Below are positions 482 through 60,535 of a stretch of DNA of 64,000 nucleotides, piece after piece. The stretch comes from Nannobrachium achirus. Lineage: Eukaryota > Chordata > Actinopteri > Myctophiformes > Myctophidae. Made by a program: the position numbers and the translations under genes. The notes under the pieces were generated by a model. That model worked only from the letters and a program-made list of their open reading frames with translations, was not told the DNA's origin and did no database searches. Location of the stretch: positions 2,014,001-2,078,000 of the forward strand of contig OY997653.1 of NCBI GenBank assembly GCA_963921795.1, given 5' to 3'. How positions within the stretch are numbered: the stretch's first letter is position 1; every line of letters starts with the position of its first letter.

Positions 482-907
482 ACAGGGGTCTTCAACAGGG
501 GGTCCAGGACCCCTAGGTGGTCCTCAGACTTACTACAGGGGGTCCTCCAAATCTTTGTGTGATAGAAAGCTTTTTTTCTCCTTTTTTTAATGAACCACTT
601 GAACCCTAGTGTCCATATTCGGAGAACTTTAGCCAAAAATAGCAGATCTACAAGCTCACACCGCCTTCCGCTGTGAGCTTGTAGATCGGCTATTTTCGGC
701 AACAAGCTTTGGTGTAGAGGGAAAAAAGAGCAGACAGCAAAAGTACAGAGTGAAAGGTCAAGTTTTATAAGTATTGACGGTTCAAGTAAATATCTGAAAA
801 CACAAATTGACTCCAAAATCACTGATGATTGTGCTGTCAAACGATGAAACTATATGGAATCTGGGGGTCCCTGCTTCATCTCTTTCTCAACTAAGGGGTC
901 CTTGGCT
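482..907 (+). mobile_element. Family-C hAT-like MITE, 3'-truncated
   Basis: It begins CAGGGGTCTTCAACAGGGGG and matches the complete copy at 11408-11891. A hairpin module sits at 632-700. The last 25 bp or so, including the right terminal inverted repeat, are replaced at about 907 by another short repeat starting AGCCTGACACTCAG, which is also seen near 60345. Confidence 0.8.
632..700. repeat. Hairpin module (in family C)
   Basis: The arms run GCCAAAAATAGCAGATCTAC... and ...GTAGATCGGCTATTTTCGGC, with a shortened centre. The outermost GCC/GGC pair is typical of family C copies. Confidence 0.85.
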
Positions 908-978
908 AGCCTGACACTCAGCCTCAATTGACATTTCGTTTCACTCCATTCAAAAATGTAAAGGGGTGTGGCTAGCAA

Positions 979-1445
979 TGGGGGGGGGGGGGGGGGTCCC
1001 AAACGTTTTTGTCTCAGGGCACCCCATAAATATTTTTTGAATCCGAAGCACCCCTACATTATAATTTTCACTCCCAGCACCTTAACTTTATAGCATATCG
1101 TCGTTGTCGGGTGGAAACCTTGTATGCCCAAAACTGTTCGTTTTGTATTTATCATCTATAAAATGTACTAAACTAGTGAAACAGCCGATCTACAAGCACA
1201 CAATCGCGAGGCGTTGTGTGCTTGTAGATCTGCTGTTTTCACTATAGTTTTGTGCGACAGAGGTTTCTGCCTGACAGTGACGATATTTTAGTGATTATGT
1301 TGCGGGAAGAAAACGTTCAGCCATTTTGGTTAGAACTGACTGAAAATAACTTTATACTTCCAAGTTTAAAATGATAGGCCTACTAAATATTTCTTCAAGT
1401 GTCCAAATAAATTCCAAACGTCACCCACTTTGAAAACCCCTGCCA
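979..1445. mobile_element. MITE-like remnant with hairpin module
   Basis: The sequence around 1098-1140 and 1260-1300 recurs at about 3121-3165, 5340-5400, 19845-19900 and 48600-48640, always beside a hairpin module whose outer arm is TAGTGAAAACAGC. The element ends were not resolved, so the boundaries are approximate. Confidence 0.5.
1174..1244. repeat. Hairpin module (TAGTGAAA outer arm)
   Basis: The left arm TAGTGAAACAGCCGATCTAC pairs with GTAGATCTGCTGTTTTCACTA. The stem carries the AAGCAC/GTGCTT variant. The left inner arm has lost about 4 bases relative to the right. Confidence 0.88.
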
Positions 1446-1494
1446 TAGAGACACAATAATCAGGCTGGTAATCTTTCCTTCCGATCTTTCCCAG

Positions 1495-1883
1495 GCTGCC
1501 AGCCGCTGCCTCTGAAGGTCCTGGACTGGTCGGCCCCCGAGTCCATCGTGGCGGTGGTCTTCTCCTGCGTGGGCATCCTGGTCACCGCCTTCGTCACCCT
1601 CATCTTCATCCAGTACCGCGACACGCCCGTGGTCAAGTCCTCCAGCCGCGAGCTGTGCCTGATCATCCTGACGGGCATCTTCCTGGGCTACATCTGCCCG
1701 TTCACGCTGATCGCCCGCCCCACCGTGGTCTCCTGCTACCTGCAGCGCCTCCTGGTGGGCCTGTCCTCGGCCATGTGCTACTCCGCCCTGGTGACCAAGA
1801 CCAACCGCATCGCCCGCATCCTGGCGGGCAGCAAGAAGAAGATCTGCACCAAGAAGCCGCGCTTCATGAGCGCCTGGGCCCAG
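1495..1883 (+). CDS. grm1: Metabotropic glutamate receptor 1, 7TM exon, first half
   Basis: This encodes the end of the linker and TM1-TM3 of a class C G-protein-coupled receptor for glutamate, acting at the neuronal plasma membrane and coupled to Gq. Translation shows group I mGluR motifs: YRDTPVVKSSSRELC, GIFLGYICPFTLIA, CYLQRLLVGLSSAMCYSALV, TKTNRIARILAGSKKKIC and PRFMSAWAQ. The exon starts after AG at 1493-1494 with the last two bases of a Gly codon. It ends in a CAG (Gln) codon at 1881-1883, followed by GT. The downstream halves fit mGluR1 better than mGluR5 (ILISVQLTLE-like TM4, FRRKKTGSGNA tail). In the mGluR1 and mGluR5 genes I know, this region is one uninterrupted exon, so the break at AWAQ|VVIAS is unusual (see the mobile element at 1887). 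Whether this is the grm1a or grm1b paralogue cannot be told here. Confidence 0.93.
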
Positions 1884-1886
1884 GTG

Positions 1887-2406
1887 CAGTGTTGATTTGG
1901 TCGACTAAAACTGTGACGAAAAAAATGTTTGTCGGCTGCATTTTCTTCACTGACGAAAACGAAATATAAACTATGATGCTGTGATGACTAAAACTAAGAC
2001 TAAATGTATTGACAATTTCGTCAACACAATAAAAACTGGACTAAAACGTTATAGGGAGGGAGTAGTGGAGAAGAGAGTCATGTTATGTTTGGTTGCTCTC
2101 GGGTGTTGCATGCTGAAAATAGCCGATCTACAAGCTCACAACGCGTCGCAGCGCGACGCGTTGTGAGCTTGTAGATCGGCTATTTTCAGCACACAACCAA
2201 GTGTAAAATCAGTCATTACGATGCCATCAAGGCCTGCCAAAATACATTTTAGTTAACTAAATCAACTGTAGATTTAGTCGACTAAAATTAGACTAAAACT
2301 AAAACTTTTCAGGTGACTAAAATTATGACTAAAACTAAATTATATTTCATTCAAAAGACTATGACTAAAAAACTAAATGAAAGTTTTGCTGTCAAAAACA
2401 ACATTG
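1887..2406 (+). mobile_element. Family-A hAT MITE forming a grm1 intron (intron 1884-2414)
   Basis: The element runs from CAGTGTTG to CAACATTG and matches family-A copies at 25342-25817, 50824-51359 and 58159-59171. Two of those have perfect 8-bp target duplications. The left flank is CCCAGGTG; the right flank is CCC-TGC-AGGTG, the same 8 bases with TGC inserted. The intron is GTG + element + CCCTGCAG, so 520 of its 531 bp are transposon. The donor is CAG|GTG and the acceptor TGCAG|GTG. Joining 1883 to 2415 gives Ala-Gln-Val-Val-Ile-Ala, the conserved receptor sequence with no codon gained or lost. The branch point and pyrimidine tract are weak by eye. An unspliced message would stop within a few codons (TGA at 1893-1895). 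Confidence 0.88.
2111..2191. repeat. Hairpin module (family A, in the grm1 intron)
   Basis: A near-perfect inverted repeat of about 39-bp arms with a 3-base loop. Outer arms are TGCTGAAAATAGCC and GGCTATTTTCAGCA; the inner arms are of the CAACGCGTCGC/GCGACGCGTTG type. Confidence 0.95.
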
Positions 2407-2414
2407 CCCTGCAG

Positions 2415-3028: not shown

Positions 3029-3488
3029 CAGGGCTGAATTATGTCTAGGGTACCATGCCGAGGGCCACAACATTGCAGGGGGCGACGGTGGCTTTCACGC
3101 TACTCCAGCGACAGTTCAGATATCATTGTTGTCGGGTGAAAATCTTGTATGTCCAAAACCGTTCGTTTTGCATTTGCGGTATCATTTTAAAAATTATTTA
3201 AGCTAGTGAAAACAGCCGTTCTACAAGCACACAACGCCTCGCACCGCGAGGCGTTGTGTGCTTGTAGATCTGCTGTTACTTTTGTGCGACGGCCTTGTAT
3301 GAAGAAGCGGGGCTTTACTCTGCTAAAGAATGTACACATTTGGAGATACGAGGTTTCCACCCGACAATGATGACATACTAGTGTTGTTGCTGCTCTTATA
3401 CCACCATTATTACTGGGGTTGGTGGGGGCCAGACAGTAGCCCCCCGCGGGCCGCAAATGGCCCGCTGGCCGCCTATTGGGGAACCCTG
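3029..3488. mobile_element. MITE-like element with hairpin module
   Basis: It starts CAGGGCTGAATTATG and ends GGGGAACCCTG, so short CAGGG/CCCTG terminal repeats are possible. The centre shares the GTCGGGTG-AAAACCTTGTATGT stretch with the elements at 979 and 19845. No target duplication was recognised. Confidence 0.5.
3204..3277. repeat. Hairpin module (TAGTGAAA outer arm)
   Basis: The inner arms CAACGCCTCGC and GCGAGGCGTTG are perfect; the stem is AAGCAC/GTGCTT. The right outer arm is shortened after CTGCTGTT. Confidence 0.92.
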
Positions 3489-4510
3489 CACTACTAAATG
3501 ATGCTTATTGGGGTGTCTGTGCAGATCAAATGATAATTTGAGGCCTGAATACTCAAATGGTGGCTGTGAATCATCTAGTGATCTCCTAATGTTTTATTTT
3601 GTGAATCGGCAGTATCATGCGTAGAATATTTGTACCGTAAATGATAATTATTTCGATGACAAGAGTGAAAGAATGTAAGAGTGAATTCATATTGTGGAAT
3701 CTTTAATGCAGAGATGATTTTGAGTCTTCAGGCATCTTGCTATCAACACAGTTTATTTTCTTCTCAGCACCTCAATGTGTTTCATGTCAGTCTTTATTGT
3801 CAAATTGTTTAGATGGTACAGTTTATAAATGAGAGGAAGAATTAGATATGACACATGCCCTGCCCCCTTAGAATACAATATAACTTGGCTGTCAATGGAG
3901 ATTCAATTTAATAAAGGCTACCCAAGTGTAACTTGGGTATTGATTAATTTGAGACCAGTAGACCATGCTGGTGATCTCTAATGATGATTAAGGTATTTTT
4001 TTAACTCACTTAAATGTTACCAACACACTTCTATTGAGACCCCACTTACGCTTTGATTTATACTTTGTTGTACGACAGTGTCCTGTGGCGAAAATAATTT
4101 ATGTTTTCGTCGCATGACACTGGTATACAATGGAGTATACATTAAGCATATAGGCCAGGGCCATTTGGGGGGCATTATTGCTTATAAAGGCATACCCCAT
4201 ATAGGGACACCAGGGTTAATGTGGTTAAATATAAGACTTGCATAAAACTCTGTTGAGATCCGCAGCAAAGACACAGCAACAACTGTCTTAAAGTAAGCAA
4301 CTGGACAAAGAACGAGACGGGTCCAACTAAAATTATCTCTCTGTGTTGTCTTTCACCCTTACAACGCTGTGTTGTAACAACTTTAAGCTGTATAGAGTAC
4401 TGGTCTGATGGAGTGATATAGCCTGGCAAATGTCTAGGCTCAGGGTTCTAGAACCCCTGGCCTGGAGAGCTACTCTGTCAAAATATCTTGGTGCAGTATC
4501 TAGAGCATAC

Positions 4511-5035
4511 ATGGGCAAAAGGCCCACCTTCTCTTAATGCGGCCCGCAGGTTAATACCGGAATACTGATATATTATTGATTTCAGCTGTTACCATTCCAA
4601 CCATGACCTGCTTTGATTCCGTCAGTCAATATTAGTAGCTTAATGGCTAGTATAGTAGTATTAAAATGTATTTTTTTATGTCCAATGTATTTGTATATAG
4701 GTTCATAGAGTTAACATGACTATTTAACTTAACTAAATGCATTTGAAATTAGATAAAAATGTTACATTTCAGGATTCCAATTCAAAAACAACAAAAACTA
4801 ATTCAGGACTCAATTCAAAAGAAGCGAAAATAGCCGATCTACAAGCTCAAAACGCATCGCACGCGATGCGTTTTGAGCTTGTAGATCTGCCATTTTTGCT
4901 TCTTTTGTATGAGATACTAGAATGACATAGTAGGACGTAGCAATATGCAATGTGGCCCTCTGGAGTGAAGGTGGAAATATAGTGGTGGGCAACTTTGATG
5001 ATGGTGAGGCCATCATCAAAGTTGCCCACCCCTGA
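4511..5035. mobile_element. Possible MITE (GTGGGCAAC repeat)
   Basis: The stretch from about ATGGGCAAAAGGCCCACC to GTTGCCCACCCCTG resembles the ends of the element at 28479-28925. A 20-bp inverted repeat (4983-5028, GTGGGCAACTTTGATGATGG and its complement) lies near the right end. Boundaries are approximate. Confidence 0.4.
4816..4907. repeat. Hairpin module with a distinct outer arm
   Basis: The arms begin CAAAAGAAGCGAAAATAGCC and end GCCATTTTTGCTTCTTTTG. The inner arms are CAAAACGCATCGC/GCGATGCGTTTTG, a combination not seen in other copies but fully paired. The outer CAAAAGAAGC/GCTTCTTTTG pair is unique to this locus. Confidence 0.95.
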
Positions 5036-5254: not shown

Positions 5255-5646
5255 CAGTGTTTCTCAACCTTTTTTCTGCAAGGGCACACTTTTCATGTCC
5301 CAAGAATCCATGGGCACGCCAACATAATAGAGGGGCGTAAATATCGTCACTGTCGGGAAGAAACCTTGTATCTCCAAGTTTCAAATGTGTACGTTTCTTC
5401 GCAAAGTAAAGCCCTGCTTCATCATACAAGGCTGTCGCACAACAGTAGTGAAAACAGACGATCTACAAGCACACAACGCCTCGCGGTGCGAGGCGTTGTG
5501 TGCTTGTAGATCAGCTGTTTTCACTAGTTTGAATCATTTTTAAAATTATAAATACAATACCGGCTTTCAAGCAGTTTCAAGGGGCACACTTGACCCTTCT
5601 CAGGGGCACACCAAAGGTCCCCAGGCACAGTGGTTGAGAAACACTG
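5255..5646 (+). mobile_element. Family-D hAT MITE
   Basis: It begins CAGTGTTTCTCAACC and ends GGTTGAGAAACACTG (perfect terminal inverted repeats). An exact 8-bp target duplication, CTTTAGAG, lies at 5247-5254 and 5647-5654, which is diagnostic for hAT-type transposition. A hairpin module lies at 5446-5526. No coding capacity. Confidence 0.93.
5446..5526. repeat. Hairpin module (family D)
   Basis: Outer arms TAGTGAAAACAG and CTGTTTTCACTA; stem AAGCAC/GTGCTT; inner arms CAACGCCTCGC/GCGAGGCGTTG; 3-base loop. Near-perfect over about 38 bp per arm. Confidence 0.95.
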
Positions 5647-6044: not shown

Positions 6045-6632
6045 AATAGCTTATCTAAAGCTCACAGAGGTTGTAGATTAGCTATTTTCATTTTAATAGC
6101 GATTTGATACATATCACGATACACGGACGATATTGGTTCATTCATGGCGATACGATACGATTCGATTCAATGATTTAAAATCGATATAGTAACTATTTAG
6201 CAAAGACATTAAATCTGTGTGAAAGGTGTGGATAGAGCAGGTTTTTAAGGGAAAGATGTATTATTATGGATATAACTAAGTAAACACTGTGATTATCTGC
6301 CAAATACATGGACATTGTATATTGAAAAACCTGCACCTTGACATGAACCCAGAGATTACACACATTTAATCTCTGATAGGCCGGTGTAGCTACATGGAAA
6401 GTAAAAGTAATTAAACCACTCCTTTTCATTTTTCTTCTTAAAAATGCTAAATACAATGCTCAAGTAGGTACTGTAGTATCGATACAATAGATTCTTTGCA
6501 CTGCCGATTCGATACGATACAAAATAAAACGATACGATTCGATTTTAGCTGTTTCCATTTCGATATACTTCAAAATGTTTAAGTTAAAAACGATATTTCG
6601 ATACAGTTACTATATCGTTACACCCCTAATGC
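6045..6632. mobile_element. GATACGAT-rich transposon remnant
   Basis: AT-rich DNA with ATCGATA/GATACGAT motifs at both ends (6100-6180 and 6475-6630), finishing near ATCGTTACACCCCTA. A decayed hairpin module (about 6045-6089) sits at its left edge. No reading frame or clear target duplication was found. Confidence 0.5.
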
Positions 6633-7122: not shown

Positions 7123-7181
7123 AAAAATAGCAGATATACAAGCTCAGTGCCGCGCTGCGAGCTTGTAGATCTGCTATTTTT
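7123..7181. repeat. Hairpin module, left copy of a family-E MITE
   Basis: Left arm AAAAATAGCAGATATACAAGC; right arm GAGCTTGTAGATCTGCTATTTTT; shortened GC-rich centre. The outward arm reads GATATAC and the inward arm GTAGATC. Confidence 0.85.
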
Positions 7182-7535: not shown

Positions 7536-7607
7536 AAAAATAGCAGATCTACAAGCTCGCAGCGCGGCACTCGTGCCGCGCTGTGAGCTTGTATATCTGC
7601 TATTTTT
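7536..7607. repeat. Hairpin module, right copy of a family-E MITE
   Basis: Inner arms CAGCGCGGCAC and GTGCCGCGCTG are perfect. The inward arm reads GATCTAC and the outward arm GTATATC, mirroring the left copy. Confidence 0.92.
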
Positions 7608-7850
7608 CACTGGTTAAAGCATTCAATAATTCTAGGCCTAAATCAGCTGAATGGCTCTGACACTGTTCATAATGCTCTCCCCTGCGGCACATTATGAACC
7701 ACTATAAACGTGTGAAGTGCCACCATTGGTTAAATGTTTGGAGCTAACGATCAGACCCTGTGCAGTGCTATTAACGTAAGATCATGTCAAGTATTTTAAC
7801 ATGCGTTGTGCTTAATTTATACTCATGCGTCATAAGTCGATGCCGCGTGC

Positions 7851-7923
7851 CGAAAGTTGCTGATCTACAAGCTCACAACACCTCATCGCGAGCGTGAGTG
7901 ATGGTAGATCGTCAACTTCCGGC
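7851..7923. repeat. Decayed hairpin module
   Basis: GCTGATCTACAAGCTCACAA on the left, a degraded centre, and TGGTAGATCGTCAACTTCC on the right. GCCGAAAGTTG/CAACTTCCGGC form a different outer arm pair. Confidence 0.6.
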
Positions 7924-7949
7924 TTGCGACAAAGTATAAATCAGGCTTA

Positions 7950-8312: not shown

Positions 8313-8433
8313 TTAAGAAATGTTGAAATATTGCTGTTCTGTTGGTCAACTGTTGTTTTGATGTTGTTTTGTCTGCAAACCACACCTCCCTGTTTTCCCG
8401 CGATAGTAACTTGGGTCTTTATCTCGTTTATAG

Positions 8434-9292
8434 TTCTAATGGCAAGTCTGTGTCATGGTCTGAATCAGGTGCAAGACACCCTCCGAGGGGGGGGAATGTG
8501 TGGCACAGACTGTCTGTGCATGTGAGGAAACAGGAAGCCGGCTGGAATCAGACGGCGGTCATCAGGCCCCTAACTAACACCCCCGACCCCCACAGCTGTG
8601 AGCCCGCCGCCCATGACCTTGGCACAGACCCCCAGCTCCTCCCCCACAACAACAACCCACCCGACTCTAAGGCGACTCTGCGCAACGCGGCAGAGGAGGA
8701 CGGCGGCGGCGAGGGGGACGGCGTGCACCGCCCTCTAGTGTGGACCCCCGCCCCCACCACCCGCCCCGGAGCGTGTCGCCCCGAGCTGCCGGACTCCGAC
8801 TCGGGAACGCCGGCTTCCCATTTGCCGACTCGCTTAGCAAACTGCGCCGCCGCCGAGCAGCGCCCCCAGGGGGCGGTGGTGGACACGCACACCTCCGGCG
8901 TCCCCGTGCTGAAGGTCGGAGCGGCGACGGATCAGCCTCTGGTCTCGGCTCTCGCCTCTCGGCTCCCGCTGCAGGGGGCTTTCGGAGAGGAGGGGTCCGA
9001 GGGCGAGGAGGAACGGGACCTCTTGCGCAGCTACGCGTTCGACGAGACCAGGGACGAGGACATTTACGAGGAGGAGGAGGGAGGGGAGGATCTGACGCTG
9101 CAGAGCAAGTTGACGCTGCTGGAGGATTCCTTGGCTCTGTCTCCCCCCTCCCCCTTCAGGGACTCTGTGTGCTCTGTGGGGGGGTCTCTGTCGGGGTCCC
9201 CCGCCGCCGAGTCGTCCACCGGAAGCCCGCCGAGCTCCGTCTACACCGCCGACATCCTCCAAGACTTCAGACAGAGCTCCTCGACACTGTGA
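8434..9292 (+). CDS. grm1: Metabotropic glutamate receptor 1, C-terminal tail exon
   Basis: The exon encodes 285 residues of the cytoplasmic tail. It begins after TAG at 8431-8433 and completes the split Asn codon to read Asn-Ser-Asn-Gly-Lys-Ser-Val-Ser-Trp-Ser, as in mammalian mGluR1. HRLSVHVR and NQTAVIRPLT follow, also conserved. The middle is low-complexity, acidic and Pro/Ser-rich, with an E/D-rich stretch (DEDIYEEEEGGED) as in the family. Near the end is PPSPF (9143-9157), the PPxxF ligand of Homer EVH1 domains, in the context SPPSPFRDSV. The protein ends SSSTL, a class I PDZ ligand, before TGA at 9290-9292. This is the long, Homer-binding mGluR1a-type tail. The middle is diverged from mammals, and GC-rich codons distinguish it from its surroundings. 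Confidence 0.95.
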
Positions 9293-9427: not shown

Positions 9428-9934
9428 GGCATTCACCAAATATTCGAATATTCGAATATTGAAGTCACTATTCGACGTTGTTCACCGAAGTCGAATATTC
9501 ACATATTTTTCTTTTTTCTTATTGTTTTCTCTTTAAGAAATATATAGTTTATAAAGCTTGGCTAGATAGGAAGTCATACGAATGTGTTGTCAATGCCCAT
9601 GGTGGATGAATTTGTTAATGCTCTATACCAAGGGGTTCTCAAACCTTTTTAGGCCGTGACCCCCAAAATAAACATATTTGAACTGGGGACCCCCACCCTG
9701 ACAAGCACTTGGAATTGTAGGTATTACATTTAATGTGACTCGGTTCCGCAGAGAAATATTGTGAAAATAGCAGATCTACATGCTCACAACGCCTCGTAGA
9801 TCGGCTATTTTCACAAAGTTCGCCTCTTGCTTACATTTGACAGTTTGGCCAGTCCTGTCGAATATTCGTCTATTCGAATACTTTCAGGTCGAATAATTAG
9901 AATACTAAAAATCACTATTTCGTGAATGCCCTTA
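9425..9934. mobile_element. MITE in a CA microsatellite, with nested family-B sequence
   Basis: The ends TAGGGCATTCAC and GTGAATGCCCTTA are inverted repeats; ATTCGAATA motifs lie inside both ends. The insertion splits a CA tract (CACACAC on both sides). A partial family-B element starting near 9630 (GGTTCTCAAACC, GACCCCC) is nested in it and brings the hairpin module at 9759-9815. Confidence 0.8.
9759..9815. repeat. Hairpin module with inner-arm deletion
   Basis: Left arm ATTGTGAAAATAGCAGATCT continues to CAACGCCTCG, then jumps to TAGATCGGCTATTTTCACAA. The deletion removes the right inner arm exactly to the module centre. Confidence 0.85.
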
Positions 9935-10693: not shown

Positions 10694-10768
10694 GAAAAAT
10701 AGCAGATATACGAGCTCACAGCACGGCACCGAGTGCTGCGCTGCGAGCTTGTAGATCTGCTATTTTTG
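10694..10768. repeat. Hairpin module (family E, left copy)
   Basis: GATATAC on the outward arm and GTAGATC on the inward arm. Inner arms are CAGCACGGCAC and GTGCTGCGCTG, with mismatches. Confidence 0.87.
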
Positions 10769-11116: not shown

Positions 11117-11165
11117 AAAAATAGCAGATCTACAAGCTCGCACAACTTGTATATCTGCTATTTTT
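11117..11165. repeat. Hairpin module (family E, right copy), centre deleted
   Basis: GATCTACAAGCTCGCACAACTTGTATATC: the GC-rich centre is lost but both ends and the flanking AAAAATAGC/GCTATTTTT arms remain. Confidence 0.85.
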
Positions 11166-11407: not shown

Positions 11408-11891
11408 CAGGGGTCTTCAACAGGGGGTCCGGGACCCCTAGGGGGTCCTCAATTACAGGGGGTCCTCCAAATCATTGTGTGATAGAAACCTTTTTCTCCC
11501 TTTTTTACATTAACCACTTGAACCCTAGCATCCATATTCTGAGAACTTTAGCCAAAAATAGCAGATCTACAAGCAGATCTACAAGCTCACAACGCCTCGT
11601 GCTGCGAGGCGTTGTGAGCTTGTAGATCAGCTATTTTTGGCAAAGAGCTTTGGTGTAGAGCGGAAAAAGAGCAGACTAAGTACAGACTGAAAGGTCAAGT
11701 TTATCACTTATTGACGATTCAAGTGGTTAAATCTGAAAACACAAATTGACATGAATCCAAAATACACTGATGATTGTGCTGTCAAACAATGAAACTGGGC
11801 CTATATGGAATCTATGAAAAGGTTGTGGGGGTCCCTGCTTCATCTCTCTCTCCACTAAGCGTCCTTGGCCTGAAAACGTTGAAGACCCCTG
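11408..11891 (+). mobile_element. Family-C hAT MITE, complete
   Basis: Terminal repeats CAGGGGTCTTCAAC and GTTGAAGACCCCTG. The flanks ACGTAGCT and CTGTAGCT agree at 6 of 8 bases, an aged 8-bp duplication. A hairpin module lies at 11551-11642. Confidence 0.88.
11551..11642. repeat. Hairpin module with internal tandem duplication
   Basis: Outer arms GCCAAAAATAGC/GCTATTTTTGGC; inner arms CAACGCCTCG/CGAGGCGTTG. The left arm contains GATCTACAAGC twice in tandem. Confidence 0.92.
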
Positions 11892-13517: not shown

Positions 13518-13857
13518 ATAGGCCTATATATTTTTACAGACAGTGAACATACAGTTATAAGCCACCACTGATATGCAAAACATTATCTTTGTAAAGCCAG
13601 AACAGAATGAGTTTAAATGGGGATATGTTTGTTAATTGGCTATCAGAGAAAGAAGTAGTCTATATCAGTGGTTCTCAAAGTGGATTCTAGGGACTCTGTA
13701 GGCTACTTTATGGGTCTACATTGACCCATACAAGTCTGTAACTCTGACAGTGTACAACAAATGGAACAAAATGGCTTCATTTGGTTCCATGTGTACACTG
13801 TCACAGTTTAGGGGAGACCTTGAAATGTGAAAGTTTGACAAACACTGGTCTATATCA

Positions 13858-16273: not shown

Positions 16274-16427
16274 GTAAGAGATTTGTTAATGCAAGAAATG
16301 TTTTTTTTTCCTTCTTTTTTTTTTTACTCTATAACTATCTTTTTTCATGTGGATATTGCTGTCGTGGTGAGGAATATTGTAGGAAATCACAGTCACACAA
16401 TGTGTTTACTTTGCGCACTTTACTGTA

Positions 16428-47664: not shown

Positions 47665-47995
47665 TAGACCAGGGGTCTTCAACGTTTTCAGGCCAAGGAC
47701 CCCTTAGTTGAGAGAGAGATGAAGCAGGGACCCCCACAACCTTTTCGTAGATGCCATAAAGTTTCATTGTTTGACAGCACAATCATCAGTGATGTACAAG
47801 CTCATAACACCTCGCAGCGCAAGGCGTTGTGAGCTTGTAGATCTGCTATTTTTGGCTAAAGTTCTCAGAATATGGATGCTAGGGTTCAAGTGGTTAATAT
47901 AAAAAAGGAGAATTCTTGACAGTGTACAAATGGAACCAAATGGACCCTCACATACATTTGGTTCCATTTGTACAGTCAAGACCTTTAAGGGTAAT
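47665..47995 (-). mobile_element. Family-C hAT MITE, partial
   Basis: AGGGGTCTTCAACGTTTTCA at the left matches the family-C right end inverted; the copy ends in unrelated sequence after GGTTAATATAAAAAAGGAG. Module at 47792-47856. A second left-end fragment lies at 49002-49140. Confidence 0.75.
47792..47856. repeat. Hairpin module (family C), left flank lost
   Basis: TGTACAAGCTCATAACACCT and GCGTTGTGAGCTTGTAGATC with mismatches, then TGCTATTTTTGGC. Confidence 0.85.
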
Positions 47996-48677
47996 TTTCC
48001 TGCGGACCTCCGTTTTTAGAACCACTGATTTATTACTAGTTTAGTAGGTACCGGTAGTGATGTGGTATTTTGAGTCACATTTCTTCAAAAAATATTTGTC
48101 ACTTGAATGCATCTACATTGGCATATTGACTTTTTTAATTGTTGGGCAGAAACCAGGTTTTAAAAAATAGCAAAAAGAAATGAATAGCAATGAATCCACA
48201 AGCATCGTATTGCAATACATTGTGAGCTTGTAGATCAGTTTATTTTCACTACTTTTGTGCAACACTGTCGTCTAAGACGACAAGTATTAAATAGGCAATT
48301 CATTTATGAAAAGAAAATCACATCAATATTAAACTATATGAATTATTCTGTTGTCCATTAATGTCACCCAGTGGTACTGCAGCTGTTGCTACTCATACAA
48401 GGCGTATGAGTATACTGCAAACATATACATAGGGACATAGAGACATACACACTCGGTCAAGCATGGGAGCGCTTACACCGCTAAAAATATATATATTTTT
48501 TATTTTTTTATTTTGTATTAAATAAGGTTTCTGCCAGATGGCGACAATGTTACTAGAACATAATGTATAAATAAGGTGTTATCTGTATGATTTCACCTTA
48601 TCGTCGTTGTCGGGTGGAAACCTTGTATGTCCAAAACTGTTTGTTTTGTATTTATCATTTTTAAAAATGATTTAAAC

Positions 48678-48758
48678 TAGTGTAAGCAGCCGATCTACAA
48701 GCACACAACGCCTCGCGGTGCGAGGCATTGTGTGCTTGTAGATAAGCTGTTTTCACTA
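48678..48758. repeat. Hairpin module (TAGTG outer arm)
   Basis: TAGTGTAAGCAGCCGATCTAC, CAACGCCTCGC with a one-mismatch complement, GTGCTTGTAGATAAGCTG and TTTTCACTA. Confidence 0.93.
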
Positions 48759-49168: not shown

Positions 49169-49226
49169 GACATGTACAAATTTGAAACTTGGATATACGA
49201 GGATTCTGCCCGACAGTGACGATATT
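49169..49226 (-). mobile_element. Family-D-like fragment abutting the rab32 exon 2 acceptor
   Basis: TACAAATTTGAAACTTGGAT through CCCGACAGTGACGATATT matches transposon sequence near 20065-20115. It ends 17 bp before the exon, so only the pyrimidine tract CTTTTCCCCTCCCTCAG separates them. Confidence 0.8.
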
Positions 49227-49243
49227 CTTTTCCCCTCCCTCAG

Positions 49244-49521
49244 GTCAGGAGCGCTTTGGGAACATGACGCGGGTCTACTACAAAGAGGCCGTGGGGGCGT
49301 TCGTGGTGTTCGACGTGACGAGGGGCTCCACGTTCGAGGCGGTGTCCAAGTGGAAACATGACCTGGACAGCAAGGTGAAGCTGGCCAACGGCAGCCCCAT
49401 CCCCTCCGTGTTACTCGCCAACAAATGCGATCAGAAGAGTGAGAGCTCGAACAACACGTCGCTAATGGACAACTTCTGCAGAGAGACCGGCTTCCTGGGC
49501 TGGTTTGAGACATCGGCGAAG
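49244..49521 (+). CDS. rab32: Rab32 small GTPase, exon 2
   Basis: Residues 72 (shared) to 164. It starts with GT CAG GAG, completing Gly72 and giving the switch II motif WDIAGQERFG with catalytic Gln73. TRVYYKEAVGAFVVFDVTR and STFEAVSKWKHDLDSKV follow, then the guanine-specificity motif NKCD (residues 131-134) and the SAK motif in WFETSAK (residues 158-164). The acceptor is CCCTCAG at 49241-49243 and the donor AAG|GTGAAT after 49521. Both junctions keep the frame with exons 1 and 3. The exon is flanked by inverted copies of a 1-kb repeat (26917-28105 and 51468-52465). Confidence 0.96.
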
Positions 49522-49960
49522 GTGAATGACGCACCGTTAGATCTTCTGGCTGACACACACACCCTAGTGCATTCTTATTTATATCGATTGAGTCCTCCGG
49601 CTTCGGCATCTGGCCTGCTGTGGTTTTGGGGGGCTTTGCAATAGTAAATTACATGATAGACATGCTGAAAAGCTCATCTTATAGGCTATTTAACAGGTCT
49701 TGACATTGACATTCACTTGTCCAGGCACAAAGGTCACTTGTCTGGATAAAAATGAGCCATTTGATTTCACAGTTGTTTTTTTCTATTTGACAAATAAATA
49801 ATACCCTCCACTCCATTGTCGTCTGAGTGTCACAGAAAAGGTGAAGCCAAGAGCCACTTGTCCAATGGACAAGTATATCTTTAATGAACTGGTCTATAAA
49901 GATTATTTACAGTAGTTGTCCCGGACAATGTTATGCCCTGTTTGACCACTTTAACCACCC

Positions 49961-50379: not shown

Positions 50380-50580
50380 AAGAAAAAAAAAACTTAGAAG
50401 GATTCAAAAGACACTTATAGAATCAGGTCAAAATTCAAATTTTCACGATAAAAAAAAAAATAGCAGATGTACACTCGGTGCTGCGCTGTGAGCTTGTATA
50501 TCTGCTATTTTTCAGATATACTGAAATTTTGACTGCTTTATTTGTTAAAGCAGTCAATAATCCTAGGCCTAAATGGGTTA
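50380..50580 (-). mobile_element. Family-E TTAA MITE fragment
   Basis: ACTTAGAAGGATTCAAAAGA through the hairpin module (50456-50512) to CCTAGGCCTAAATGGGTTAA at about 50580; the rest is missing. Confidence 0.75.
50456..50512. repeat. Hairpin module (family E), short centre
   Basis: AAAAATAGCAGATGTACACTC and GTGAGCTTGTATATCTGCT with the left stem deleted. Confidence 0.82.
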
Positions 50581-50823: not shown

Positions 50824-51359
50824 CAGTGTTGATTTCGTCGACTGGAGACTATGACCAAAAATGTTTGTCGACTGCGTTTTTTTCACTGACGAAAACAAAA
50901 TAAAAACTAAGCTGTGATGACTAAAACTAAGACTAAATATATTGACAATTTTGTCAACAAAATAAAAACTAGACTAAAACGTTAGGGAGAGACTAGTGGA
51001 GGAGAAAGTAATTTTATGTTTGGTTGCTCTCAGGTGTTGCGTGCTGAAAATAGCAGATCTATACAAGCTCACAACGCGTCGCAGTGTGACACGTTGTGAG
51101 CTTGTAGATCTGCTATTTTCAGCACGCAATCAAGTGTAAAATCAGTCATTATGATACCATCAAGGGCTGCCAAAATACATTTTTAGTTGACTAAATCAAA
51201 TGTAGATTTAGTCGCCATAAATTCTTATGATATTTAGTCGACTAAAATTAGACTAAAACTAAAACTTTTCAGGTGACTAAATTATACTAAAACCAAATGA
51301 CATTTTATTCAAAAGACTGACTAAAACTAAATCAAAATTTGCTGTCAAAAACAACACTG
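50824..51359 (+). mobile_element. Family-A hAT MITE
   Basis: CAGTGTTG...CAACACTG ends between GT-rich flanks (GCGTGTGT and GTGTGTGT). Sequence and length match the grm1 intron copy. Module at 51039-51127. Confidence 0.92.
51039..51127. repeat. Hairpin module (family A)
   Basis: Outer arms GCGTGCTGAAAATAGC and its complement; inner CAACGCGTCGC with a two-mismatch complement; a 2-base AT insertion in the left stem. Confidence 0.94.
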
Positions 51360-53219: not shown

Positions 53220-53700
53220 CCTCGTGAAAATGTGTGCAAATCTTTGAATATATGTATTTTCAAAGCGACAGTTTGTAACTCAAATTTTGCTTCTGGGGGG
53301 GTCCCTGGAACTAAATATTTTGAGATGGGGGTCCGTGGCCAAATAAATATCATTTTGGGGGTCCTTCACATGAAAAGGTTTGAGAACCACTGACATAGTA
53401 GTCTCTCAAGAACAGGCTAACTGAGCTCAAGTTAAGTGAAAAGGACCTTTTCTTTGATGATGGCTGGCCAGATTGCTGACATAGAAACATATATATTTTT
53501 TTAATCTTAGAAGGATTCAAAAGACACTTATAGAATCGGGTCAAAATTCTAATTTTCACGATTTTTCAAAAATAGCAGATCTACAAGCTCGCAGCGTGGC
53601 ACTCGGCGCCGCGTTGTGAGCTTGTATATCTGCTATTTTCAATAGCAGATATAACGCATGAAATAATGATACACAATAATGTGTACCCATTCTACAATCA
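53220..53700 (-). mobile_element. Family-E TTAA MITE, partial
   Basis: GTGAAAATGTGTGCAAATCT through GGTTTGAGAACCACTGACAT to AATGATACACAATAATGTGT and ACCCATTCTA. The left module and both TTAA sites are missing. Module at 53568-53640. Confidence 0.82.
53568..53640. repeat. Hairpin module (family E)
   Basis: GATCTACAAGCTCGCAGCG and TGGCACTCGGCGCCGCGTTG then GAGCTTGTATATCTGC; inner arms have a few mismatches. Confidence 0.92.
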
Positions 53701-54050
53701 GTCATCACTCTTTGCCTTTGCGTTCTCGTCCAAGCTAACCGCTAAAACGTAAAGGAACACATTTTTACCGCATCGTCATCTCCATCTATGGGTCCTCCAT
53801 CCATTTTCCCCCTCACAACGCATTGTATGAGCTTGTAGATCTGCTATTATCGGCGAAGGTTAGGCTATTTTCACTGAGTGTATGAGGTGCCCAGAATAGC
53901 GATGCTGCGTTTGATGTGGTTAAATTCAAACTGATTCGAATGTGTAGTCATGCGTCATGGTGCTTGCCTTCAAGCAGTTGGCTGCATTCCGGTGTCAAAC
54001 AAAGCACGCACACCTTGTGACAGAAGCCAGGAAAATAATCTGTATTGTCA

Positions 54051-54103: not shown

Positions 54104-54568
54104 AGCTCACTGTGAGTTGTGAGCTGAGCTTGTTGATCGGCTATTTTTGGCGAAGAGATTTTGAGTAGACTGAAAAAGACGATCCAAGTATAGACAATGT
54201 GGATTCCAAGGACTCTGTGGGTTCCTTTAGGGGGGTCTATCTTGACCCATACAAGTCTGTAACTCTGACAGTGTACAAATGGAACCAAATGAACCCTAAC
54301 GGGTCCATTTGGTTCCATTTGTACACTGTCAGAGTTAAGGGGAGACTTTGAAATTTGAAAGTTTGAGAAACACTGCTCTAGGGGGTTCAAGTGGTTAAAT
54401 ATGAAGAACATTAATTCATTATTGTGTGTAAATTGCAATGGCCACCAGCTTATACTAATTCACAATTTCCTTTTGATCTGTTCGTGTCAGTGTTTCTTTG
54501 TCCCATGAAATGACACACAACCTTTTAACTTCTTTGACGTTAACGTCGTCTTTTAACCTTTTTTCCAG

Positions 54569-54718: not shown

Positions 54719-55560
54719 CACTGAGCATCGGTGTGGTCGTTACCCATGATGCACCTCCCTCCAATGTGGCCCTGTCCTCCTTCAGGGGCCTCGCTGGTGG
54801 AGATGGGCGATATGGACAAAATAGAATATCACAATATCTTTGACCAAATACCTCGATATCAATATTATATCATATTGAGACAAGATCTCTTCTGGGATTT
54901 TGGATATCATATTGTAATATTGTGATATTCCTGACCTAAGTCTTATACAGAATTGAAAGAAAACATATAGGCTGTATATATTTTTAATTGTTAAGAAATT
55001 GCAAAAAGGATAATCTACAAGCTCACAGCATCACATTGTGCAACATGTTCTGAGATTGTAAATCTGCTGAAAATGCTAAAAGAAAATTGCTATTATCGCC
55101 TCAATATATTCTCTTGATAATATTAATATTTTCAATATTATCGATACCGAGGTATTAGGTAAAGAAGATTGTGCTGTTTTATTTTGTCTTTATCACCCAG
55201 CCCCAATTGCTGGTATTGCTAGAGTATGATGCCAAACTCTTCTCCTCTCTACAGTGAAGCCTGTTCAACCAGAACTCTCAAGTTACCAACAATCGCTTTG
55301 CTTATCCATCCCCAACTGGCCTCCGAATGGGAATCCAATTTTCCGCCATGTTGTCTCAATTGCTATCGCTGCCTGAGGCCTCCCAACCGTTCAAGCTACA
55401 TCATTCTCTGCTCCTCTGTTTCCAGAACGGAGGGTTTGCACTGTAGAGGTTTTCTCTGCGCTAAATCTCCCCAAACGTTGACCGTTCCGGCCACACCCCG
55501 ATACTGGACTGGACTGTACCATTGTCAGAATAAAGGGGTTCAACCCAAGTGTGATGTGGA
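54719..55560 (+). other. rab32: Probable rab32 3' UTR with transposon insertion
   Basis: No coding sequence after the stop. A GATATGGAC-type element (about 54800-55205, TATCGATAC motifs and the end TATCACCCAGCCCC, with a decayed hairpin module at 55008-55075) interrupts it. AATAAA at 55529-55534 is the first good polyadenylation signal; another lies at 57068-57073. The true 3' end is not determined. Confidence 0.5.
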
Positions 55561-55718
55561 CTCACATTAGCTAACCTGTCAACTCCCATTCCCTTTCTTT
55601 ACTTTTATGTTTTGGTCAGTCAGGTACGTGGCACAAAGAAAGGGTCAGGGGCATCTCAGTTAACTCATTTAGAAAAGGTACACATTATTGTGTATCATTA
55701 TTTTATGCTTTAACTATT

Positions 55719-55758
55719 GAAAAATAGCAGATATACAGCTTGTAGATCTGCTATTTTT
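55719..55758. repeat. Minimal hairpin module
   Basis: AAAAATAGCAGATATACAGC and TTGTAGATCTGCTATTTTT: the whole GC-rich inner part is gone. Confidence 0.85.
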
Positions 55759-56112
55759 GAAAAATCTTGAAAATTTGAATTTTGACCCGATTCTATAAGT
55801 GTCTTTTGAATCCTTCTAAGATTTTTTGAAAAACCTATGTTTCTATGTCAGCAATCTGGCCAGCCATCGTCAAAGAAGAGGTCCTTTTCACTTAACTGGA
55901 GCTCAGTTGGTCTGTTCTTGAGAGACTACTATGTCAGTGGTTCTCAAACCTTTTCATGTGAAGGACCCGCAAAATGATATGTATTTGGCCACGGACCCGC
56001 ATCTCAAAATATCTAGTTCCAGGGACCAACCAGAAGCAAAATTTGAGTTACAAACATTCGCTTTGAAAATACATATATTCAAAGATTTGCACACATTTTC
56101 ACGACTTTTTCC

Positions 56113-56185
56113 AAAAATAGCAGATCTACAAGCTCGCAGCGCGGCACTCGGTGCCGCGCTGTGAGCTTGTATATCTGCTATTTTT
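56113..56185. repeat. Hairpin module (family E), perfect inner arms
   Basis: CAGCGCGGCAC/GTGCCGCGCTG inner arms with a 3-base TCG loop; GATCTAC inward, GTATATC outward. Confidence 0.95.
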
Positions 56186-56337
56186 CACTGGTTAAAGCAT
56201 TCAATAATTCTAGGCCTAAATGGGTTAACGTAATCACATGTCATATTTCATAAGGTATTAAGTGTTGCAGTGTTTTTTTTTTTTTTTTCAAATGTTATCT
56301 GAAAGACTGAACAAAGATGTTCAAATAATGGACCATT

Positions 56338-57424: not shown

Positions 57425-57848
57425 CAGGGGTCTTCAACATTTTCAGGCCGGGGACCCCTTAGTTGACAGAGAGATGAAGCAGGGACCCCCACAACCATTT
57501 CAGAGTTTACATATATTTTCATTGTTTGACAGCACAATCATCAGTGTATTTTGGATTCATGTCAATTTGTGTTTTCAGATATTTAACCACTTGAACCACT
57601 TGAATACTTAATACATTTGACCTTTCACTCTGTACTTAGTCTCCTCTTTTTCCCCTCTACACCAAAGCTATAGCGCGAGGCGTTGTGAGCTTGTAGATCG
57701 GCTATTTTTGGCTAAAGTTCTCCGAATATGGACGCTAGGGTTCAAGTGGTTAATATAAAAGGTTTCTATCACACAAAGATTTGGAGGAGCCCCTGTAGTA
57801 ACTCTGAGGACCCCCTAGGGGTCCAAGACCCCCTGTTGAAGACCCCTG
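57425..57848 (-). mobile_element. Family-C hAT MITE with perfect target duplication
   Basis: CAGGGGTCTTCAAC...GTTGAAGACCCCTG, flanked by CTTTAGAT at 57417-57424 and 57849-57856. The module is reduced to its right half (about 57667-57713, GCGAGGCGTTGTGAGCTTG). Confidence 0.94.
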
Positions 57849-58320
57849 CTTTAGATTGTGTAGTGAAAAGCTACCGTATGTCTACAGTATGAGAATGTAC
57901 AGGATTCAACAAGCTGAGAGGAATACATAGTGAAGTGGTGTGTGTCTGTGCGTGCGTGCGTGCGTGCGTCCAGACCATGTGCTTCCACTCAGCAGTCATC
58001 AGACTCTGCAGTGTTCACTACTTGGGCTCTCGTGGTCCTCTACACTTACATCATTACCAGAGAAGGAATGCCATCCAGCCCTCGAGGACACACAGTCACC
58101 ATTCAATAACTTCTTCTCATCCATTGTGTTTTAGAACAGTGGTTCTCAACCTTTTCAGCAGTGTTGATTTCGTCGACTAAAGCTATGACGAAAAATGTTT
58201 GTCGACTGTTTTTTTTCACTGACGAAAATTAAATAAAAACTAAAAAAATACTAAGCTGTGGTGACTAAAACTATTAAAGACTAAATATATTGACAATTTC
58301 GTCAACAAAATAAAAACTAG

Positions 58321-58790
58321 AAGCAGTGCTCTTCCAAGCACAGGTCTCCACCAGGCCATGCGTCCTGGTGGTGCTACTGTATAATAGGCCAATGTAAATA
58401 GGCCTATTATACACTAGGCTCCTATAAACTTTGGAAGCCAATCTTAGCCAATCAGGATGGAATATGAAAAATCACATGACTATAGAGAAACTGCCTACCG
58501 ATTTGTAGGATTTTTGGACAAAATCTGGAAGAGTAGTGCACCGAAATGTGTTTTGCGAACATCGGCCACTAGGTGGCGCTAGAAAAGGCCCATTTGAAAA
58601 ATTTAGGGCAGAGGTTCTAGATTGACATCCAGGGAGTGTGTGTGCTCACTTTGGCAGCGTCCGGGCCAACGGCGACTGAGATTAAGCGCTCACAAACTGC
58701 GAGGACGCACGGACGGACGGACGGACGGACGGACGGACGGACGGACGGAGGGGAAAACATACTCTCCCTCAGCCTTCGGCTGGTGGAGAC
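58321..58790. mobile_element. GGAC-repeat element nested in family A
   Basis: A 470-bp insertion between two AACTAG copies (58315-58320 and 58791-58796). It starts AAGCAGTGCTCTTCC and ends CTTCGGCTGGTGGAGAC. A GCGAGGACGCACGGACGGAC tract (about 58702-58748) precedes the end. Family not identified. Confidence 0.75.
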
Positions 58791-58856
58791 AACTAGACTA
58801 AAACGTTAGGGAGGGACTATTGGAGAAGAGTTGTTTGGTTCTTCTCAAGTGTTGCG

Positions 58857-58937
58857 TGCTGAATAGCAGATCTACAAGCTCACAACGCGTCGCAGCGAGA
58901 CGCGTTGTGAGCTTGTAGACCTGCTATTTTCAGCATG
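58857..58937. repeat. Hairpin module (family A)
   Basis: TGCTGAATAGCAGATCTAC, inner CAACGCGTCGC and near-complement, GAGCTTGTAGACCTGC and TATTTTCAGCA. Confidence 0.94.
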
Positions 58938-59717
58938 CAACCAAGTGTAAAATCAGCCATTACGATGCCATCAAGGCCTGCCAAAATACATTTTAGTCGA
59001 CCAAATCAACTGTAGATTTAGTCGCATGAAATCTTATGATATTTAGTCAACTAAAATTAGACTAAAACTAATACTTTTCAGGTGACTAAATTATGACTAA
59101 AACTAAATGACATTTTATTCAAAAGACTATGACTAAAACTAAATCAAAATTTGCTGTAAAAAACAACACTGCTTTTCAGGCTGTGACCCCCCCCCCCCCC
59201 CCCCAAAGAAAAAAATATATTTGGGGACTCCCCACCACCCACCACCTGACTTAGTAGGAGTTGAGGCACTTTTACTTGGACCCAGGGATAAATATTGTGA
59301 AAATATCTACAAGCTACAGTACAACACCTCCAACACAAGGCATTTCAAAAACTTTGCCAATTTGGCAATGTTTGACCAGCTTGTATAGTAATAGTAGGCT
59401 ATAGTTTGTTTTTCTTCTTTTTTTTAGGTCTTAAAAAGGTCTACAAAGTAAAAAAAAAATGTGTCACTTCACTGTCATCTGGGGACCCCTCTGAAATCTT
59501 GTGGGGACCCCCCTAAACACGGGTTTAGAACCACTGTTTTAGAAAATATCCCCTATCTAACTGTTGATTGATTGACATTGACTGCATACTTTACTAGAAG
59601 TTTGCATATCAAAACGTGCAGCTACAGTTCACTGATAGTAAAATGATAAAGACCACAAAGAAAGGAAGCTGTTAGGCTTATTTGCATTGGGGTCCCTTAT
59701 TTGTACTCAATTCATAC

Positions 59718-59723
59718 AAAAAA
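59718..59723 (-). terminator. RNA polymerase III terminator of tRNA-Glu
   Basis: TTTTTT on the minus strand, 6 bases after the end of the tRNA gene, the usual Pol III stop. Confidence 0.9.
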
Positions 59724-59729
59724 CGGTAG

Positions 59730-59801
59730 TTCCCTGACCGGGAATCGAACCCGGGCCGCGGCGGTGAGAGCGCCGAATCCTAACCACTAGACCACCAGGG
59801 A
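59730..59801 (-). tRNA. tRNA-Glu (anticodon CTC)
   Basis: On the minus strand it starts TCCCTGGTGGTCTAGTGG and folds as a full cloverleaf. TCCCTGG pairs with TCAGGGA (one G-T pair). The anticodon stem CGGCG/CGCCG encloses loop CTCTCAC with anticodon CTC at plus 59766-59768. The T arm contains GGTTCGATTCC (the B box) and the A box is TGGTCTAGTGG. It ends with discriminator A and no encoded CCA, as in eukaryotes. It is identical, as far as I recall, to vertebrate tRNA-Glu-CTC genes, and a T6 terminator follows. It delivers glutamate to GAG codons. It lies between rab32 and the putative adgb exon. Confidence 0.97.
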
Positions 59802-59906
59802 GACATGCTTACTCAATCGTCTTTAGGACCCAGAAGCTCTGCAAGGAAACTCCACTACCTTCCCTTTCCGTTGCTTAGCAATGCATAAACTTCCATGAGT
59901 AACTAG

Positions 59907-60535
59907 TAGAGATGGGATTTATGGTTCTTTGAAGTGAGCCGGATCTCTGGGATCAGTTCCTTTCCAAGAGCCGTTCAAAAGACTCACTGGCTCATTTTAG
60001 TTACTTTGTAGATTTTGATTAGCCTATAATTACAAATCACGTCTTCAACCCTATACATTTCGTCCATGTTTAAATTTCCGCCTTTTGAATATAGCCTATC
60101 CCATCTACAACAATGCGTCGTTGCGGCATTGTGAGCTTGTAGATCTGCTATTTTCAAAAGACTTTGATACAAATACTTTTTTTTATTTATTTTTTTTACC
60201 TCAAGTGCATTTTAATTCCGTACATCCACTTGTGGCAGAATATTTCTACATTGCAGTATTGATCCTTTTACTTAATGCAAGTAAAGAATTTGAGTACTTT
60301 TTCCAGCACTGTTCAGAAAGGAACGGCTCCCTACTGCGAGTGCGAACTAGCCTGACACTCAGGCTGACTCAGCCTGAATTGACATTTCGTTTCACTCCAT
60401 TACCAAACTTTAAAGGGGTGTGGCTAGCGATTCAGGGTCTGGAACTAGGCTAACTGCGAACTGGATCCCATTCCCATCGTTCATTTCAAAGAGCCGTTCA
60501 AAAGACTCGATTCGTTCGCGAACGTCCCATCTCTA
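59907..60535. mobile_element. Family-G element (TAGAGATGGGA), with nested short repeat
   Basis: Starts TAGAGATGGGATTTATGG and ends GAACGTCCCATCTCTA. AGAGCCGTTCAAAAGACTC blocks occur near both ends. It matches 16428-16965 in opposite orientation. Module at 60098-60156. A 100-bp repeat (AGCCTGACACTCAGGCTGAC, about 60350-60450) is inserted near the right end. The right end lies 80 bp before the putative adgb start. Confidence 0.78.
60098..60156. repeat. Hairpin module, left arm decayed (family G)
   Basis: CATCTACAACAATGCGTCGT and GCGGCATTGTGAGCTTGTAG then ATCTGCTATTTTCAAAAG. Confidence 0.8.

Follow-up and report, generated by a model that had tools for sequence, protein, structure and literature searches.

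The stretch of DNA analyzed here, called the window, consists of 64,000 nucleotides of the Nannobrachium achirus (Myctophidae) assembly GCA_963921795.1 (contig OY997653.1, positions 2,014,001 to 2,078,000, forward strand), and all of our results refer to this single 64-kb window of one genome. The window carries many copies of a palindromic hairpin module in which an arm, GAAAATAGCnGATCTACAAGCTCACAACGCCTCGC, is followed by a short loop, which measures 2-3 nt in the 13 copies that were aligned, and then by the mirror image of the arm, with a total length of approximately 73-78 bp. The arm core, GATCTACAAGC, occurs 72 times with at most one mismatch, compared with 0.98 expected matches and a maximum of 4 among 100 shuffles. 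A profile of the 35-nt arm found 76 arms with an expect value (E) below 0.01 and 86 arms with E below 1, and 20 dinucleotide shuffles produced none at the first threshold and a mean of 0.4 at the second. The shared hairpin module proposed in the sequence-only reading, an earlier inspection of the letters without database searches, is therefore real. Two of the 72 core matches (31333 and 35045) resemble chance matches because the frame and the second arm are both absent, and the profile matches at 34207 and 35046 are probably due to chance.

The 86 arms with E below 1 were paired by hand, which gave 27 hairpins with both arms below 0.01, five further hairpins with one weak arm (6045, 30559, 38787, 50457 and 55721; 32 two-armed hairpins in total), 19 unpaired single arms, and one tandem-duplicated arm (11555). 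The sequence-only reading had counted approximately 37 two-armed copies and about a dozen half copies, and our figures differ on both counts: 27 (32 with weak second arms) and 19. The outer frame that it described, AAAATAGC/GCTATTTT, is indeed the usual one, with the exception of the host family F2, which has AAAACAGC. The predicted folding of five intact copies as single-stranded DNA ranges from -37.7 to -54.4 kcal/mol (z from -13.7 to -19.3). The two-armed hairpins, given without strand, are as follows; host families are numbered F1, F2 and so on, and other hosts are named by position.

636-697, F1 (TTAA type, within hAT CAGGGGTCTTC)
1179-1240, F2, shortened
2115-2187, F3, 35-nt arms mirror-identical
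3208-3277, F2
4826-4896, singleton 4862, outer symmetry AAAAGAAGC
5450-5522, F2 copy nested in hAT 5255-5646
6045-6089, weak hairpin (arms E 0.08 and 0.25) within TTAACCACTTAAGCCC end
7124-7180, F4 first end
7537-7606, F4 second end
9763-9812, F5, internal deletion
10696-10766, F4 first end
11118-11164, F4 second end, shortened
11555-11637, F1, left arm tandem-duplicated
19647-19698, degenerate hairpin in hAT 19570-20175
19927-19999, F2 nested in hAT 19570-20175
21515-21587, F5, perfect 40-nt arms including extension
25530-25593, F3
29489-29545, F4 fragment
30559-30622, singleton 30590, left arm weak (E 0.08)
31649-31704, F4 fragment
38787-38842, F2, shortened, one weak arm (E 0.08)
42271-42327, F4
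42845-42888, F8, one flank common with F1 right side
43643-43713, F4 second end
47791-47852, F1
48684-48754, F2, loop in the opposite orientation to that of three other copies
50457-50511, F4 fragment, one weak arm (E 0.77)
51046-51120, F3
53569-53640, F4 first end
55721-55757, F4 first end, mostly deleted, one weak arm (E 0.09)
56114-56184, F4 second end
58862-58931, F3

The single arms are the following.

7859-7884, plus strand, element 7883, second arm degenerate
13987-14021, plus strand, F5 half form
16772-16793, minus strand, F7
17487-17512, plus strand, single arm
17634-17652, minus strand, TTAA lineage
21409-21443, plus strand, F5, tandem duplicate of the 21515 region
22023-22044, plus strand, F7b
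28337-28358, plus strand, F8
33537-33571, minus strand, F5 half form
42214-42240, plus strand, F4 piece
44063-44095, minus strand, F4 first end
45397-45412, minus strand, TTAA lineage
48217-48238, minus strand, F2 relative
53820-53850, minus strand, TTAA lineage, weaker evidence
54125-54147, minus strand, TTAA lineage, flank of F1 right type
55013-55029, plus strand, host element unassigned
57675-57708, minus strand, F1
59305-59315, plus strand, weak arm (E 0.42), half form of an old F5-type copy
60123-60155, minus strand, F7

Fifty sites were grouped by a self-comparison that left out the module sequence, and the groups were then aligned; 13 of the 50 remained ungrouped, including 35050, which is a chance match. 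F1 and F4 are TTAA elements (ends CCACTTGAACC and CCCATTTAG), the latter with a hairpin close to each end; F3 (CAGTGTTGATTTCGTC) and F5 (CAGTGGTTCTCAACC) are hAT-like elements; and F2 is an element with TCGTCGTTGTCGGGTGGAAACC ends and TA on either side in two of the four copies tested. The principal host elements, also given without strand, are listed here with their target-site duplications (TSDs).

7809-7946, 7883-type element, TGCTTAATTTATACT ends, with module
11408-11891, hAT (TSD 6/8) enclosing F1 TTAA element 11514-11726 (TTAA/TTAA)
16428-16963, hAT (TSD 7/8) enclosing F7
21287-21801, F5 hAT, duplication 6/8
25342-25817, F3 hAT, TSD CTGTCACA 8/8
55664-56224, F4 element, TTAA on both sides, hairpin near each end
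57425-57848, hAT enclosing F1, TSD CTTTAGAT 8/8
57587-57749, F1 TTAA element nested in hAT 57425-57848, own TTAA/TTAA, carries the arm
58159-59171, F3 hAT, TSD CTTTTCAG 8/8, inserted in F5-type hAT

With sizes of 163 and 213 bp (F1), 561 bp (F4), 476 and 536 bp (F3) and 515 bp (F5), these hosts are short and have inverted ends, as miniature inverted-repeat transposable elements (MITEs) do in size and terminal repeats, and they are bordered, copy by copy as given here, by the duplications of such elements, TTAA in F1 and F4 and 8 bp in F3. TTAA lies on both sides in both F1 copies tested and in one of four F4 copies, the other three keeping it at one end only. The hAT-like end motif is CAG...CTG, and this motif together with an 8-bp duplication occurs in F3 (8/8, 7/8 in copy 50824-51359, and 8/8) and in the outer element of F1 (8/8 and 6/8). 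In F5, the duplication is only 6/8 in both copies tested, and the outer element of F7, which is of the GAGATGGGA type with other ends, has 7/8 and 3/8 in two copies. The 8-bp and TTAA duplications reported earlier thus stand for some copies and are imperfect or missing in others. Because the piggyBac terminal motif CC[C/T]T (as in PMC2872659) is replaced by CCAC in F1 and by CCCA or CTCA in F4, we limit the label of these elements to TTAA-type, piggyBac-like.

In F1, the hairpin reached the hAT element by way of a nested TTAA element that the hAT merely encloses, an arrangement that is also visible around 636; F1 should not, then, be counted as a hAT-family host, as it had been. F7 is suggested to have arrived in its hAT by nesting in the same manner, with the inner TTAA element delimited on fewer than two sides. 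The F3 copy 58159-59171 spans 1013 bp and presumably holds further inserted DNA; because it interrupts an F5-type hAT (58137-59536), with a perfect 8-bp duplication, CTTTTCAG, this insertion is the later of the two. An apparently reciprocal nesting is found at 18560-18840, where a CAGGGGTCTTC hAT lies in a TTAA-lineage element and another TTAA-type end lies within that hAT. An F4-type end, TTAACCCATTTAGAACGGGTACACAC, occurs at 39415-39440 with no hairpin close by and a short distance upstream of a 299-aa open reading frame (ORF; 39594-40490) that we take to resemble L1 ORF1 and that has Pfam matches below the cutoff only. The F5 hAT copy 33331-35774 contains an element resembling a long terminal repeat (LTR) retrotransposon (33635-35712), whose two 454-bp end repeats are 100% identical and which has no clear 5-bp duplication (GGGGG/GGGTC). 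Pfam searches of seven chosen ORFs found no transposase, and none of the seven lies inside the hosts F1, F3, F4 or F5 except one in the LTR-like insert.

The flanks of the module were compared with the F1 flanks from the module outward, against 300 shuffles; random windows had given null scores that contained repeats (one score of 173), and later tests therefore used shuffles. The flanks of F7, 17640, the F4 second end, 54128 and F8b match the left or right flank of F1 at a level reached by 0/300 shuffles, and that of 45400 at 2/300; F7b (8/300) and 53831 (11/300) match more weakly. In an all-against-all comparison of 80-nt flanks (640 pairs), eight pairs were reached by 0/500 shuffles and six more by 1/500, where approximately 2-3 would be expected by chance. 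Pairs at 0/500 include F1 right with 54128, F7 with F7b, F1 right with F8b, and 17640 with 6045; the F1 left flank and the F4 second end stand at 1/500, and 53831 with 54128 is also among the top pairs (0 or 1/500). In addition, the F1 end TTAACCACTTGAACCCTA has 13 matches with at most three mismatches, compared with 0.08 expected; those at 5990, 17689, 21986 and 54381, among others, adjoin sites of the lineage. By these flank and end matches, F1, F4, F7, F7b, F8, 6045, 17640, 45400 and 54128 look like one TTAA lineage, in which F7b, 6045 and 53831 are placed more weakly; 53831 probably belongs to it. Kinship is probable between the F3 interior and element 7883 (the F3 right flank with 7883b at 0/500, the remaining F3-7883 pairs at approximately 0.01).

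Other hosts appear to stay apart from this lineage. Summed anchored scores against seven TTAA flanks (6045 not among them; positive control 0/300) replaced a TTAA-end profile because the program cut-offs left most flanks unscored, including true TTAA-lineage right flanks. By this measure, both sides of F3 and the flanks of F2a, 4862, 7883 and 30590 score like shuffles, at least 36/300 of which reach them. The TTAA lineage, F2, the F3/7883 group and the two singletons thus appear to have little or nothing measurable in common beyond the palindrome. The sequence-only reading had placed the module in many unrelated families. What stands is that the palindrome occurs in elements with TTAA, hAT 8-bp and TCGTC-type ends, some without clear flank kinship to the TTAA lineage; the number of unrelated hosts was inflated, in that F1, the F4 second end, F7, one side of F8, 17640, 45400 and 54128 join that lineage.

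The module itself seems more conserved than its surroundings. Compared with F1, the arms of six TTAA-lineage elements are 0.85-1.00 identical and the ends of five of them 0.72-1.00, and the spacers that separate the end from the module reach 0.63-0.84 in gapped alignments, for which shuffled means are 0.70-0.74; the arms (only 16-34 nt long) were compared ungapped, so that the two measures are not strictly comparable. Element 17640 reverses the order, with an arm identity of 0.89 and an end identity of 1.00.

The two arms have also changed together. Among the fixed differences between a family and the overall consensus, 10 of 13 are mirrored in both arms and 3 are not, whereas the private changes of individual copies comprise 44 in one arm and a single mirrored one (Fisher p = 6e-8; 1e-6 when arm position 1 is left out; 1.5e-6 when the F1 private changes, the only F1 data dropped in that rerun, are removed). 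The private changes were counted in the 13 of 32 two-armed hairpins that have two gap-free 35-nt arms. The singleton 4862, which would contribute two more mirrored and three more one-arm changes, was left out; the 12-bp tandem duplication at 11555 accounts for 6 of the 44; and the F1 arm consensus was set symmetric because its two second arms disagree. In pair counting on 13 of the 32 hairpins, 93.6% of the cells are paired, compared with 86.8% after shuffling (0/500), and the covariation score is 0.242, compared with 0.114 (0/500). We consider the contrast of fixed and private changes to be the better evidence because related copies inflate covariation scores.

In one of four F2 copies (48684-48754), the loop is inverted from GGT to ACC in family orientation. 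The F5 half copies (13987 and 33537) have AAC after the arm and the full copy (21515) has GTT, which we interpret as a probable inverted loop. The junction of the F5 half form, CAACACAA, is similar in 33551 and in the diverged 59315 (CAACAA in 13997); this similarity disfavors recent breakage as the origin of all half copies, and the half form, judged on six copies, may predate the perfect palindrome at 21515. In the available text of PMC8604942, arm homogenization together with spacer inversion is reported as the signature of template switching between inverted repeats. The mirrored differences are equally expected from correction and from selection, and the loop inversion favors correction; the near absence of mirrored private changes points to selection or to slow correction in long-lived active copies.

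Family alignments place the hairpin at one host position per family, or at two in F4, which lie at mirror-image ends; local tandem duplicates occur at 11555 and 21409. Across families, the module lacks flanking direct duplications of constant length, although TA or 3-bp matches occur in some copies. The borders are instead inverted and extend the mirror symmetry by a family-specific length: 4 bp in F1, 5 in F2, 5 in F3 (10 in copy 51046), 6 in F5, and 11 in 4862, with one mismatch at the first base. These borders speak against an inserted unit with its own duplication. Modules differ between families at 2-8 of 33 positions, and each family has its own combination of bases; because single bases are shared or missing (position 31 G is common to F3 and F4, and 38822 of F2 and 59305 of F5 lack the family base), the family versions are distinguished, by eye, by these combinations. 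The module is not obligatory, as the following two elements indicate; each is represented by one diverged copy, in which the module may have been lost or replaced.

4001-4228, minus strand, TTAA-lineage element without module, 12.2 bits to the TTAA-end profile (0/300)
4050-4148, minus strand, 7883-type ends with a different hairpin, without module

The window contains further features. A second long palindrome, approximately CAGTGTACAAATGGAACCAAATG, occurs at 54260-54337, around 13740-13820, at 37322-37387 and at 47980-48080, partly near CAGTGTTTCTCAAAC-type hAT ends, and is possibly another shared hairpin. Exons of a metabotropic glutamate receptor 1/5 (7tm_3 and the Homer-binding domain) and Ras-family exons lie at 1449-2963, 8327-9289, 15883-16500 and 49186-49641; the first of the Ras-family exons is closest to RAB32/38, and the neighboring genes are animal genes. 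A tRNA-Glu (CTC) gene occupies 59729-59801 on the minus strand. At the gathering threshold, Rfam returned a single tRNA and nothing on the module, which rules out a known structural RNA as its identity. Exact searches with two module patterns, one of 20 letters and one of 25 positions including two N, gave no matches in viral and genome contig collections, which are not expected to contain the source genome. The 20-letter core is absent as text from the literature searched, and no description of the module was found there; the module or its host families may already be named in a repeat library.

We tentatively favor, at somewhat less than an even chance, an account in which an old TTAA-MITE hairpin spread by nesting and ancient grafts and was kept palindromic by correction and/or selection. 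The hairpin would be an old cruciform-capable palindrome, chiefly of one TTAA-flanked piggyBac-like MITE lineage, in which it would sit approximately 40-60 bp inside at least one element end. By one route, whole TTAA elements would land in hAT elements, which would then spread the composite, as seen in F1 and suggested for F7. By a second route, arms would rarely have been grafted in ancient times into F2, the F3/7883 group, and perhaps F5 and the singletons, most simply by hairpin-templated template switching, in which an arm is copied, the strand folds back, and the arm is recopied together with a few host bases. After its arrival, the hairpin would be inherited with the family, with no sign of hopping, and its arms would stay mirror-identical during family activity through arm-to-arm correction and/or selection for a function in cis. 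Such a function would be independent of which transposase moves the element and would give carriers an advantage. A mixture of template switching and a common functional signal, two of the explanations offered in the sequence-only reading, fits.

A number of observations weigh against this account. The high arm identity is partly an ascertainment effect because the sites were found by the module. The F8a flank matches F1 weakly (12 and 26/300), the F4 first end does not match it (156/300 and 105/300), and with 80-nt flanks the F1 left flank matches F7, 17640 and 45400 at p 0.006-0.01 only. Conversely, supposedly grafted hosts match the TTAA lineage or one another: the F5 right flank suggestively so (0/300 for 21567 and 10/300 for 33551; the left flank is weaker, at 20 and 36/300), F2b at a borderline level (2 to 37/300 in four copies), F2b with the F4 first end at 0/500, and F2a with 6045, 30590 with 6045, and F2a with 4862 each at 1/500 (80-nt flanks in these pairs). 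These F2, 30590 and F5 right flank matches hint that the grafted families may be descendants. The mirrored change of F5 rests on a single two-armed copy, F4 has two consistent unmirrored positions, and the F4 mirror extension of 1 bp is a chance result (P = 0.25). Pairs changed on both sides (10 vs 7.4 in shuffles; 18/500) and further pair types (22 vs 19.0; 16/500) are the two less extreme of the five pairing measures, and frequent correction in dead copies predicts more mirrored private changes than 1 of 45. TA lies on both sides of the hairpin in three F2 copies, and F2 alone would fit a TA duplication around it. Finally, module-less TTAA-lineage and 7883-type elements exist, and no empty host site for any graft was found in the window, so that the template-switch step is unobserved.

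The main rival, which we regard as possible although unlikely, is descent and nesting only, from one ancestral TTAA-type hairpin element, with the F2, F3 and F5 flanks eroded. The flank comparisons already draw nine or ten families and singletons towards a single lineage, in part by weaker tests, nesting is demonstrated in F1, and the F5, F2 and 30590 flank matches given above point in the same direction. However, the flanks of F3, F2a, 4862, 7883 and 30590 remain shuffle-like against the seven TTAA flanks, and because the modules differ at so few positions, equally old neutral flanks ought to be recognizable. The TTAA-end profile also gives no score on F2, F3 and F5, which is a weak argument, as the F1 right flank, F8 and 54128 are unscored as well.

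A common signal in cis, by which the hairpin binds, dodges or triggers a host factor or response so that carriers are favored and palindromy is selected, appears distinctly unlikely as the whole explanation. Conservation is similar in the module arms and the element ends (subject to the ascertainment effect), mirrored fixed and one-arm private changes are what selection on active copies predicts, and the predicted single-strand folding is strong (-38 to -54 kcal/mol in five copies). However, the module has no Rfam match, although no collection of binding sites was searched, module-less members exist, and selection on a binding site predicts neither loop inversion nor a family-specific mirror extension. 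The hitchhiking palindromic unit that inserts into MITEs by itself, also raised in the sequence-only reading, would explain the same palindrome in hosts with different ends and the TA-flanked F2 copies, but it is highly improbable given one position per family (two in F4), the absence of a target duplication of constant length common to the families, flanks that are inverted rather than direct repeats, and the lack of ends of its own beyond the palindrome.

By description rather than by sequence, the closest precedent would be the coral CMITEs of Acropora. According to the available text of PMC2872659, these are TTAA-flanked piggyBac-like MITE families that have different ends and a common 75-base internal region, which shows stronger conservation between families than the ends do (the authors name the same ascertainment bias), and their nesting yields new composites (CMITE-IN). 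TTAA families, a common internal region and nesting are shared with our case, in which that region also seems well conserved; that text describes the coral region from no families other than TTAA ones and does not refer to it as a palindrome. The module described here, in contrast, is palindromic, lies in a subterminal or central position, and is found in hAT-type elements and others as well. The V domain of short interspersed nuclear elements (SINEs) is not known to be a palindrome. Such highly conserved SINE domains resemble the module in being conserved internal domains of non-autonomous elements, and the V domain is found also in a DNA transposon, the MITE MER6; as far as the available text of PMC6887750 goes, it is a retroposon domain, whereas our module resides in DNA transposons. 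Arm homogenization, spacer inversion and extension of arm identity are likewise features of template switching in the available portions of PMC8604942 and PMC3820800, which concern mutations in yeast and not a module common to transposon families. The second route of the favored account invokes this process. Angel and other teleost short inverted-repeat elements are fold-back MITEs of fish that form separate families and are not known to have a single hairpin in common.

A more specific idea, which we judge unlikely, is that fold-back MITEs use the hairpin as an 'apex cassette' independent of the transposase. An arm would be grafted onto unrelated MITEs by snap-back template switching with a few host bases, which would produce the longer family-specific palindrome, and the palindrome would be kept perfect in active lineages because hairpin formation aids multiplication. 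If true, palindrome centers would be hot spots of part swapping among MITE families. In the available text of PMC2872659, the question of why some MITE interiors outlast the ends in conservation is left open. In the present case, the conserved interior is a palindrome whose halves co-evolve, and it occurs in TTAA-type and hAT-type elements. It may therefore provide a handle on whether hairpins help MITEs to multiply and whether palindromes serve as exchange points at which new MITE families are built.

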